DNA of 64,000 nucleotides from Amyelois transitella (taxonomy: Eukaryota; Arthropoda; Insecta; Lepidoptera; Pyralidae), in NCBI RefSeq assembly GCF_032362555.1, contig NC_083525.1, forward strand, positions 729,501 to 793,500, given 5' to 3'. This document shows, piece by piece, positions 8,340-37,400 of the stretch (position 1 is the first letter of the stretch; the number at the start of each line of letters is the position of its first letter). The notes below the pieces were generated by a model. It did no database searches. It was not told where the DNA came from and worked only from the letters and a program-made list of their open reading frames with translations. Both the position numbers and the translations under genes were made by a program.

Positions 8340-22435
<14,096 letters not shown>

Positions 22436-31600: not shown

Positions 31601-34448
31601 TGCTGAATGAATTTTTTCAAAAACTCCAGCTCTTTTTCAAACTTGATAGGGCGTCGCTTTGTGTACGGGTCACCACTCTTTGTTTTTCTGTTATTCAGAG
31701 CTTTCCTAAAATTATTACGTATATTACTCCATATTTTCTGACATTCTTCACCTAAAACAAAACATAAGCAGGTAAAATGGTATAGAATCAGAATAAGTAG
31801 GTAATGGGAAAAGGCCTTAGATAGTGACTAGGTGACTAGGTTAGCACCAGCTATGTTTATGGGATTATATTGAGCTAATTTTTTTTCTAAGTAAAAATTA
31901 CCACTGGCTTTACGGTGAAGGAAAATATCGTGAGGAATTCATAATTATATATAAATAAATATATCGTATTATTTAATTGACTTTGTTTAACTGTACCCTG
32001 TCTTTCACTCTGCCTCACTTACCCCTCTTTATATTATCTTTCAGATTTTTGATCACGGGAAGTAGCTTCAAGTCTCTAGGTTACAGCTATCGTATGGGGT
32101 TTAGTACAGTGCGCTCTATAGTACATGAAACTTGCCAAGTCATTTGGAATGTCCTAAGGCCTAGTGTTATGCCAAAACCAACAAGGGAAAAATGGACGCG
32201 AATCGCGATGGAATTTGATGAAAAATGGAATTTCCCGAACTGCATCGGTGCAATAGATGGTAAACATTTTAGGATAAGGGCACCTCGCAATAGTGGAAGT
32301 CTCTACATGAACTATAAAAAGTTTTTTAGTATCGTGCTACTAGCGGTTGTGGATGCAAATTATAAATTTGTGATTGCAGATGTAGGATCATATGGACGAA
32401 ATAGTGATGGAGGTATAATGCAAAACTCAATATTTGGAAAAAAATTGACTTCTAATGCCCTCGATATTCCCCCAAAAAAACGTTTACCGAGGACAGATCT
32501 TGAGTTGCCCTATGTTTTTATAGCAGACGAGGCTTTTCCGTTAACCACAAACATTATGAGACCATTTAGTAGCGACCGATTGACAGATGAAGCAATGAAA
32601 ATATACAATTATCGTTTGAGTAGAGCCAGGCGTATCGTCGAAAATGCATTTGGTATACTTCAAGAACGTTTCGAATTATGTCAAAAAGGAATTCAGGTTC
32701 AACCAAAATATATTGATAATATCATTTTAGCATGTACTTGCTTACACAATTTCATCATAGGTGGTACAAGCACAGAAAGTCAAAGTATAGCAAGTGTAAG
32801 CATTAATTTAGAAAACGATAATAATATGAACAATGCATTAGATGGTACGACAGTACGGGAGATGTTTAAAGATTACTTTAACTCTGATGAGGGCTCGATT
32901 CCATGGCAAAACGATATTGTAAATAGACATTAATACCGTGTGAAGTATTAAAATATAATTATATTGCAAAAATATTTACCTGTTTTATTCATTTCTGTCC
33001 CAATTATTCTCCACGCATTGTTCTTCATTTGAGTGTTCATATAATGTTTTGATGACATATTATATAAATAATCATAGGCTTGAACTAATGTTATTAATTT
33101 TTCCTCCATGTTGGAATAAAAAACGTAAAAAACTGGTCTCCGAAAAAAACACGTAGGTACACAGTCGTCAAAGACGCGGGCGCAAATGGATGGTCAATGG
33201 TGTGCATTCCCCGCTTCTCTACCCCCACCGCCGCACCCCGCAGTATATTACTACGAGCGCTGGAGTCCGTGTCATGCCGTTGCCTACCGCAGTATGCCGC
33301 GGCATCCCGCCACGGGAGCCTGTGACGAGCGCCGGAGTCCGTGTCATGCCGTTGCCTACCGCAGTATGCCGCGGCATCCCGCCACGGGAGCCTGTGACGA
33401 GCGCCGGAGTCCGTGTCATGCCGTTGCCTACCGCAGTATGCCGCGGCATCCCGCCACGGGAGCCTGTGACGAGCGCCGGAGTCCGTGTCATGCCGTTGCC
33501 TACCGCAGTATGCCGCGGCATCCCGCCACGGGAGCCTGTGACGAGCGCCGGAGTCCGTGTCATGCCGTTGCCTACCGCAGTATGCCGCGGCATCCCGCCA
33601 CGGGAGCCTGTGACGAGCGCCGGAGTCCGTGTCATGCCGTTGCCTACCGCAGTATGCCGCGGCATCCCGCCACGGGAGCCTGTGACGAGCGCCGGAGTCC
33701 GTGTCATGCCGTTGCCTACCGCAGTATGCCGCGGCATCCCGCCACGGGAGCCTGTGACGAGCGCCGGAGTCCGTGTCATGCCGTTGCCTACCGCAGTATG
33801 CCGCGGCATCCCGCCACGGGAGCCTGTGACGAGCGCCGGAGTCCGTGTCATGCCGTTGCCTACCGCAGTATGCCGCGGCATCCCGCCACGGGAGCCTGTG
33901 ACGAGCGCCGGAGTCCGTGTCATGCCGTTGCCTACCGCAGTATGCCGCGGCATCCCGCCACGGGAGCCTGTGACGAGCGCCGGAGTCCGTGTCATGCCGT
34001 TGCCTACCGCAGTATGCCGCGGCATCCCGCCACGGGAGCCTGTGACGAGCGCCGGAGTCCGTGTCATGCCGTTGCCTACCGCAGTATGCCGCGGCATCCC
34101 GCCACGGGAGCCTGTGACGAGCGCCGGAGTCCGTGTCATGCCGTTGCCTACCGCAGTATGCCGCGGCATCCCGCCACGGGAGCCTGTGACGAGCGCCGGA
34201 GTCCGTGTCATGCCGTTGCCTACCGCAGTATGCCGCGGCATCCCGCCACGGGAGCCTGTGGCGTGTCTTTTCGATTAAATCCCTTTCAATGCCACGGCAT
34301 CATTTTAAAGCATAGCAATTTATGTCGTATTTCTGTAACAGTACGGTTGAATGTCCATTAGTAAAAATTAAAATCCCTTGCCATTCCGTCCCGGTCTGCG
34401 TAGGCCTTACAGCGGTTGTCCAAAGCGCATGTGTAGAACAAGCGGTGG

Positions 34449-34496
<48 letters not shown>

Positions 34497-37400
34497 TGTT
34501 GATTCTGTCTACCCCGCAAGGTATATAGACGTGAATATATGTATATACATACATTTTTTTATAATTTTACAACTTTTAGTATGGCTGGCTGTAGGTTGAC
34601 TAACAAGTCAATCAACGTTAAATTTATGTTGTGAATGATACTCTCGAGGTGTTTTTAAAAGTCTTTTGACTAGATGTTCTTCAGTATGGCGTGGGGGGAG
34701 GGCTCGCAGGTGTTACATACAGACACACACCTCGGTGGCGATGTGGCGGTCTCCGGCCCCGAAGTTGCGGAGGAGGCAGGTCCTCAGGATGGCGTGGGGG
34801 GAGGGCTCGCAGGTGGCCGCGCAGAACTCCGTGATGCGGGGGTCCTCGATGCCAACGCAGTCGAAGAACTGTGGAACAATTATTTGTTATTAAAATCTGG
34901 GAATATCTTAGTGAACAAACTGGGCTACGGATAGAGCGTTAGAGCATAAACGAATGTATGTACAAGATTCGTCACGCGTAACAACGACAAACATAGAAAA
35001 AAGTGAGAGTCGAGGAAAACATGACTGTTAAAGAGCCTTGCTGAGATATCAGGAAATCCTTTTAAAGACTTACCGAGAAATCAGGATCATTAGCCTGTTC
35101 TGCGGCTTTAGCATCTTTCGGAGGGGCATCAGCGTCTAATTCTTCTCTCATCTCAGGTATGAGGATGTGTATGGAAGCCCTGGCGGCCGCAGACTTCGCC
35201 TGTCGTTTACTGGAGCCCTGGCCAACGCCGTACTGCATGCCTCCGATGTATACCGTCGCTTGGTATGGGGTTGACGCGTTTTCTGAGAAGAAGAAATGGA
35301 TATGATTATTTTTATGTTGAACTAACGATAGAGAACTCACTGAACTATAGAGAACTCACCGAGCTATAGAGAACTCACCGAGCTATAGAGAACTCACCGA
35401 ACTATAGAGAACTCACCGAGCTATAGAGAACTCACCGAACTATAGAGAACTCACCGAGCTATAGAGAACTCACTGAGCTATAGAGAACTCACCGAGCTAT
35501 AGAGAACTCACCGAGCTATAGAGAACTCACCGAGCTATAGAGAACTCACCGAACTATAGAGAACTCACCGAACTATAGAGAACTCACCGAGCTATAGAGA
35601 ACTCACCGAGCTATAGAGAACTCACGGAGCTATAGAGAACTCACCGAGCTATAGAGAACTCACTGGTCTATAGAGAACTAACCGAGCTATAGAGAACTAA
35701 CCGAGCTATAGAGAACTCACCGAGCTATAGAGAACTCACTGATCTATAGAGAACTAACCGAGCTATAGACAACTCGCTGAGCTATAGAGAACTCACCGAG
35801 CTATAGAGAACTCACCGAGCTATAGAGAACTCAGCGAGCTATAGAGAACTCACCGAGCTATAGACAACTCGCCGAGCTATAGAGAACTCACCGAGCTATA
35901 GAGAACTCACCGAGCTATAGAGAACTCAGCGAGCTATAGAGAACTCAGCGAGCTATAGAGAACTCAGCGAGCTATAGAGAACTCAGCGAGCTATAGAGAA
36001 CTCACCGAGCTATAGAGAACTCACCGAGCTATAGAGAACTCACTGAGCTATAGAGAACTCACCGAGCTATAGAGAACTCACCGAGCTATAGAGAACTCAC
36101 TGAGCTATAGAGAACTCACTGAGCTATAGAGAACTCACTGAGCTATAGAGAACTCACCGAGCTATAGAGAACTCACTGAACTATAGAGAACTCACTGAAC
36201 TATAGAGAACTAACCGAGCTATAGACAACTCGCTGAGCTATAGAGAACTCACCGAGCAATAGAGAACTCACCGAGCTTTAGAGAACTCACCGAGCTGCTT
36301 GAACTCGTAGACGGGCTGCTTCTGCAGCGCGCGGCGCACGTACTCGTGGAACACGGACAAGTAGCTGCGCCCGTTCATGTTCATAACGCAATCACGCTTT
36401 GCCGTCTTGCCTGGAAACAAAAGCATATTGAAGCCACATCAAAATTAAAAAGGGGATGTTGAGATGGTTTGGACTTAAGTATCAAGAGAATGGATGAAGA
36501 GAGACTAACGAAAGGAATTTATAACGCAGAGCTGACTGTACAAATGGGATAAGGCTTGCCTTGTCGAACTTTCAAGGACCAAATTTCGTATGTCTTAAAA
36601 AAGGGAGATGTTAAGAGTACCCGTAATCGTCGAATATGCACAAAAAAGAGTAATGAGATTAGAGGAAGCGGGAGAGGTCTGTAAGGATCGTTGCAAGTGG
36701 ATATCCATAGTCTCATATGCCTACCCCAATGGGAGATAAGCGTGATGATATATAAGCATCGGTTGTAACTCACCATTCTCCTGTCCGTTGGCCGGCTGTG
36801 CTGGTATGGTGATGAGCTTTGTGCCTTCCGGTAACGCCGGATATTGTAACGCCTTGCGAGCCTTCGTATACTTCCGCCGGTCAGCCCAACGTCTAAAAAA
36901 GCATTACAGATTTAGATCAGGACTTGTTGGTCGAAAAGCACATAGAAAAATATGTACTGATAAATTTTGTGGTGTGTGGTTCCCGGCACCAAGAGAAAAT
37001 AGAATAGGATCACTCCATCTCTTTCTCACGGATGTCGTAAAAGGGATAGGCTTATAAACTCGGGATTCTTCTTTTAGCCGATAGGTTTGCAACCTGCCTC
37101 TATTTAAATCTCAATTCTATCATTAAGCCTGACAGCTGAACATAGCCTATCAGTCTTTTCAAGACTGTTGGCTCTGTCTACCCCGCAAGGGAAATAGACG
37201 TGATTACATGTATGTTTGTATGTATAGTTATTTGTAGATTTGACCAGAAATTATATAATCAGTTAAATGTTTAAAACAAAGTAAGACGAGCGAGAAATTC
37301 TATAAATACTCACTTAAAATGCATAATATTAACAGTCTTGAATTTGAATAGATTCTTGCAATAATCGTTCACTTGCTCGTGAGTCAATTGCTGAGTCTTC

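Follow-up and report, generated by a model that had tools for sequence, protein, structure and literature searches.

The window analysed here, a stretch of 64,000 nucleotides of Amyelois transitella DNA, contains a gene in which one intron consists largely of tandem copies of its own 5′ splice site. This locus raises three connected questions: how such an array originated, how a correct transcript may be obtained from an intron that offers dozens of equivalent donors, and whether the array is a device of this particular gene or one case of a wider class.

The array-bearing gene and its sixth intron

The predicted product identifies the gene as DGCR8/Pasha. Indeed, its exon translations, once joined, show a match to Microprocessor subunit DGCR8 (6v5b) with an E value of 5e-36, covering residues 1-210 of the 212 given, and a dsrm domain falls on exon 7 (E 2.9e-09), which has a single match in the 327-Mb genome. 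Exons 6 and 7 join in phase (...CAG CTC G/AA AAC GCG, read as QLEN; here and below the slash marks the splice junction), and exons 6-8 are free of stop codons. Exon 6 ends in CAGCTCG, its last base being 36291, and is followed directly by GTGAGTTCTCTA, with the donor G at 36290; the first base of exon 7 is 35282. Coordinates of the features are collected in Table 1.

The initial annotation had described about 50 tandem 19-bp units repeating the exon/donor junction between 35283 and 36297, a span that corresponds to intron 6 plus a few exon bases. This description was confirmed by TRF on the window, which returned a 19-bp period with 51.0 copies and 93% matches at 35328-36296; on the coding strand the consensus unit reads AGCTCG/GTGAGTTCTCTAT. 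Only the final 45 nt of the intron, including the acceptor, lie outside the repeat. Most copies retain the donor motif, as had also been noticed: GT is present in 43 of the 51 units (the real donor counted), GTGAGT in 39 and G/GTGAGT in 28, while the eight units devoid of GT have either lost the first G (five units) or carry GC (three units).

Table 1. Positions in the window of the pasha and GMC features discussed in the text.
Feature	Position	Strand	Basis or remark
pasha exon 6, 120 nt, 3′ end ...CAGCTCG	36291..36410	-	DGCR8 match
Authentic 5′ splice site GT of intron 6, in the first unit of the array	36289..36290	-	Use predicted from the reading frame
pasha intron 6, 1008 nt, of which the array takes 963 nt	35283..36290	-	
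Minisatellite, 51 units of 19 bp	35328..36296	-	Consensus: last 6 exon bases and 13 intron bases including the 5′ splice site
pasha exon 7, double-stranded RNA-binding domain, preceded by TTCTTCTCAG	35074..35282	-	dsrm match
pasha exon 8	34731..34868	-	DGCR8 match
GMC oxidoreductase exon, 3′ end repeated in the 131-bp array	13335..13494	+	GMC_oxred_N, E 3.5e-08; acceptor by eye
Second boundary array, 131-bp units, 10.4 copies, 3′ part of the GMC exon and donor ACCAG/GTACAC	13442..14807	+	TRF, sequence

Two other elements of the window were noted by the way. A 72-bp array of 14 copies with 99% identity and a GC content of 0.69 occupies 33253-34260, downstream of pasha exon 8 and with a DDE_Tnp_4 transposase gene (31977-32933) as its neighbour; it was considered as a boundary array and rejected, since no exon is visible at its edge. 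On the minus strand, an open frame of 1013 amino acids (17983-21024) resembles, by eye, the reverse transcriptase of an intact non-LTR retrotransposon.

Origin and turnover of the array

The exact 19-bp unit occurs in at least 22 copies in the 327 Mb, every one of them inside the pasha array; the search used one rotation and zero mismatches, and genome-wide match counts are lower bounds. The 51 units fall into 13 types, and identical variants stand side by side 8 times versus 1.4 expected (p 5e-05); moreover, a two-unit block is present twice, at units 3-4 and 27-28 (numbering from 0), and the units without GT are distributed as 2, 6 and 0 over the three thirds of the array. Clustered variants together with a repeated two-unit block are the pattern left by tandem duplication and unequal exchange. 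A consensus combining six exonic and thirteen intronic bases, exact copies found only here and the local clustering of variants support an origin by duplication across the boundary, and the proposal that the array was born in this way is thus borne out. That it arose by tandem duplication spanning the exon/donor junction is well supported, the duplication mechanism itself being deduced from the present sequence. The seed would have been a tandem duplication of a short stretch across the exon 6/intron 6 junction, which would later have expanded to 51 units through slippage, unequal exchange or gene conversion.

Predicted consequences for splicing

The later copies had been proposed to be competing donors, each adding a multiple of 19 bases to the transcript. 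As candidates they are supported by the sequence, since 42 of the 50 later unit positions keep GT; all 50, if spliced, would lead to a premature stop, located within the array in 49 cases and in exon 7 in one. Retention of intron 6 likewise gives a stop a few codons beyond exon 6. Later donors would then act as decoys or poison, not as sources of open isoforms. In 27 of the 50 the donor equals the real one both in sequence (G/GTGAGT) and in calculated U1 pairing energy (-9.4), so that use of the first donor, as predicted from the reading frame, would have to stem from its position. In classic competition experiments, the intron-proximal of two equal donors is often favoured, and this counts against the first copy. 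In the mechanism proposed here, the limits of exon 6 would be set by its own acceptor and by the donor closest to it, the first copy would be spliced and the other 50 would leave with the intron; any leakage to later copies would produce stop-bearing transcripts destined to decay. The array is most likely tolerated, driven by turnover and spliced from its first donor.

No significant sign was found that the donor core of the pasha units is either kept or removed, five of the 11 substitution types falling at positions -1 to +3 (P 0.06). Nor is the clustering of these types within the unit significant (8 of the 11 within a 7-bp window, p 0.17).

Boundary arrays in a 264-kb sample

To place the pasha array in context, a sample of about 264 kb was considered, composed of the window and 200 kb of the same contig with an overlap of 500 bp. 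Eleven strong arrays were present, a strong array being defined by a TRF score of at least 800, a threshold picked once the list was known; on our own reading, eight of them repeat an exon end together with its donor. The sample is small and one gene is dominant: five of the eight belong to a single presumed ubiquitin-protease-like gene, containing DUSP and UCH domains, with units of 99, 150, 136, 124 and 115 bp in 26, 3, 5, 18 and 4 copies, respectively. Six of the eight (pasha, GMC and four of the five in the protease gene) cannot be read through. The frame is open throughout the arrays of USP exon 2 and L020, which are less certain as boundary arrays and could be coding repeats. At USP exon 1, the frame ending on K meets a TGA seven codons on, as judged by eye. 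USP exon 2 alone has no match in PDB, L020 has none in Pfam or PDB, and USP exon 3 lies outside the DUSP match. In 30 kb taken from three other contigs there was no strong array, the best TRF score being 66.

Some further features of these arrays were observed. The copies of the 131-bp GMC array show, by eye, many synonymous differences from the real exon in their 5′ part and agreement towards the donor, as if the array preserved older sequence or had undergone patchy conversion. Two more arrays in the protease region begin a few bases past a donor-like site (C21:803477 and C21:825894). Outside the repeat, third-position GC is higher in the array-side half of six of the eight exons considered and equal in the other two, with few codons in each (window 36291-36410 and 13335-13494; L011, L012, L014, L015 and L020); GC-biased conversion is possibly the cause. 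Arrays are also found at AT-rich exons, for example L041.

Recurrence across the genome

Three donor patterns were searched genome-wide together with their reversed counterparts, and loci rather than matches were counted, because single large arrays can dominate the number of matches. Three GGTGAGT at a spacing of 13-43 bp gave 60 matches versus 10 for the reversed pattern, at nine loci; among the six loci checked (C22, C27 and C28 were left out), three are boundary arrays, namely pasha, a Laminin G exon and a PDZ-like exon whose match (E 0.0085) is below the Pfam cut-off, and three are not. Three AGGTRAG at 87-117 bp gave 250 matches versus 335 for the reversed pattern; at least eight loci were recognised among the matches listed (100 of 250, up to C11), seven of these eight at exon ends, with Pfam support for PPPDE, DUF4789 and zf-Nse exons. 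The longer AGGTRAGT, three times at 87-117 bp, gave 89 matches versus 16 reversed, at 13 loci, of which nine are at exon ends and four are not or are unclear. The nine include WD40 and FragX_IP exons and an LRR-like exon below the cut-off; L050 (C27:1725883) was judged from its unit alone, as the examined stretch starts within the array. Two of the nine had already appeared with the second pattern and one in the 264-kb sample.

In total, 23 boundary arrays were recognised at 19 places, presumed to represent 19 genes, two of the arrays being less certain because of their open frame. Twelve lie on exons with an above-cut-off match in Pfam or a match in PDB: dsrm/DGCR8, GMC, DUSP (two), UCH/USP15 (two), Laminin G, PPPDE, DUF4789, zf-Nse, WD40 and FragX_IP. 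For the remaining 11 the assignment was made by eye, on the strength of an open frame with an acceptor upstream; two of them have a sub-cut-off match (PDZ and LRR), eight have no significant match of their own and one was unsearched. L037 and L042 have no Pfam match and L047 has no match, while L043 and L048 have weak hits only; L039, at first taken for integrin-like, has no match in Pfam or PDB. The pasha array belongs to a class that recurs in this genome, in which the 3′ end of an exon and its donor are repeated in unrelated genes.

Individual members of the class differ in size and setting. The longest among those listed is a 56-bp boundary array at the DUF4789 exon, which extends for several kilobases (L040, from 425; C5:2630845-2635477); the Laminin G exon (L035, 288-1014, minus strand) carries a 41-bp boundary array with a higher-order period of 158 bp. 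In the WD40 gene (L045, near 375) the repeated donor lies a few codons past a stop codon, and the array site may be an intron of the 3′ untranslated region.

Donor and acceptor sides

The same spacing was used for two acceptor patterns, which yielded 10 matches at five loci versus 45 for the reversed patterns; none was evidently an acceptor with its exon in the printed bases, although acceptors may be covered less fully by these patterns than donors are by AGGTRAGT. Arrays at exon starts were likewise absent among the inspected arrays of the 264 kb, a sample that does not preselect donor arrays, unlike the three genome patterns, which were built from donors. From these sequence counts, a donor-side bias of boundary arrays appears possible. 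It would fit a filter, because repetition of an acceptor would make the exon longer; an excess of arrays at donors, relative to the rest of the introns, would need a mutational cause. A bolder reading, according to which the exon/donor junction itself is a hotspot of tandem duplication in this genome, with arrays in dozens of genes or more and acceptors spared, is tentative, and we hold it somewhat less probable than its opposite.

Alternative explanations

The initial annotation had suggested that decoy binding of U1 tunes the level of pasha. U1 would be captured by the repeated donors and a fixed proportion of transcripts would end as stop-bearing products, thus adjusting a dosage-sensitive Microprocessor subunit; the retention of GTGAGT in 39 of the 51 units, the premature stop predicted from each of the 50 later positions and the single genome match of exon 7 are all in line with such a role. 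However, unrelated genes carry arrays of the same build at their donors, the donor core bears no significant sign of selection and GT has been lost in eight of the 51 copies (2, 6 and 0 by thirds of the array); the suggestion is unsupported, and a dosage role is unlikely. Since like arrays stand at exon ends elsewhere, the pasha array looks like local DNA duplication of a recurrent kind rather than a switch built for a single gene. A role for RNA structure was also considered, in which the array transcript would fold on itself, burying the later donors or offering the Microprocessor a hairpin. A 115-nt stretch folds better than 200 of 200 dinucleotide shuffles (z -3.8) and, in local folding, the real donor (0.0013) exceeds 35 of the 50 later sites in openness; yet 15 of the 50 are more open than the real donor, which in the global fold is not more open either (0.11 versus a mean of 0.17), and a 96-nt stretch folded as DNA is unexceptional, 17 of 200 shuffles being as good. 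Special folding was rejected on the column-permuted control, since 37 of 200 permuted arrays equal or surpass the first 16 units in folding. In these models folding affords no clear protection, and a structural role is highly improbable.

Two further explanations concern the array as such. Its length in the assembly could be wrong, and in the extreme the copy number or the entire array might be a product of assembly; this is very unlikely, as the 51 units comprise 13 locally clustered types, separate loci share the build yet differ in their unit, and in some arrays the first or last partial copy is unlike the interior. Alternatively, intron 6 itself may owe its birth to an exonic AGGT site that was duplicated in tandem, according to an intron-gain model proposed for the amphioxus mirages (PMC3087553, in the part compared). 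A simple duplication would, however, be expected to leave repeat sequence at the acceptor too, and the acceptor end, that is the last 45 nt with TTCTTCTCAG, lies outside the repeat, which makes this the least probable of the alternatives. With these weighed, the pasha array is probably a tolerated junction-duplication minisatellite, presumably spliced from the first donor, and a member of a recurrent class.

The main interest lies in the frequency of such arrays in the genome, more than in pasha itself. Every such array lets one ask, in a natural setting, how equal donors are told apart by the spliceosome: if the first donor is consistently chosen in genes whose copy numbers range from 3 to 51, nearest-donor exon definition would be strong in vivo, and if it is not, the genes bearing arrays would leak and decay. 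Were the hotspot reading true, nature would have run an experiment in this lineage, obliging splicing to choose the first among near-identical donors that number up to about fifty. A donor-side bias, if real, would have to be explained either by a mutational process acting at the ends of exons or by a strong filter that removes acceptor repeats. On the practical side, the arrays would mislead gene predictors that treat every copy as an exon.

Comparison with known systems

The closest parallel is found in amphioxus, where the so-called mirages are tandem duplications of exon-intron boundaries, unstable in length, with units of 10-72 bp and of 150-160 bp, reported in Adh3, globins, PGBD5 and troponin C (PMC3087553; PMC3902484, in the passages compared); according to the authors, they seem not to disturb regular splicing (PMC3087553, same passages). 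The arrays described here are likewise boundary-spanning tandem repeats, many of them with splice signals, and the 10-72 bp units of amphioxus Adh3 bracket the 19 bp of pasha (PMC3087553; PMC3902484). As far as those passages go, mirages occur at both 5′ and 3′ boundaries, whereas all accepted cases here are at donors, most of the searches being donor-directed; and amphioxus provides haplotype length differences and RT-PCR data, whereas the pasha array is known from one assembly alone. Measured against the mirages, the pasha unit contains bases of the exon along with the splice site, its origin is local, as judged from exact copies, and its turnover is local too.

A second parallel is the minisatellite of human IFI6 (6-16), reportedly the subject of Turri et al. 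1995. In the part of a later account compared here, two downstream repeat units are said to serve as donors and to give different isoforms (PMC4526556). In pasha, by contrast, splicing from later copies would give stops, and this is the prediction for all 50 of the 50 later positions. Human internal tandem repeats are minisatellite-like and placed at exon-intron boundaries, as in pasha; in the passages compared they are located within segmental duplications and may give rise to new introns (PMC2812944), whereas pasha exon 7 has a single genome match. The intronic minisatellites of C. elegans (PMC4039745) and the arrays in earthworm metallothionein introns (PMC12783039) are intronic arrays for which the text compared states no repetition of the boundary.

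No report of boundary arrays in insects was recognised by title or abstract among the open-licence papers listed, and in the parts of the papers compared such minisatellites are suggested as a general feature for amphioxus only; their occurrence across an insect genome would therefore widen them beyond amphioxus. The pasha array belongs to a known kind, that of the amphioxus mirages and of human IFI6; what is new here is the setting, the apparent abundance of such arrays and their possible bias towards the donor side.
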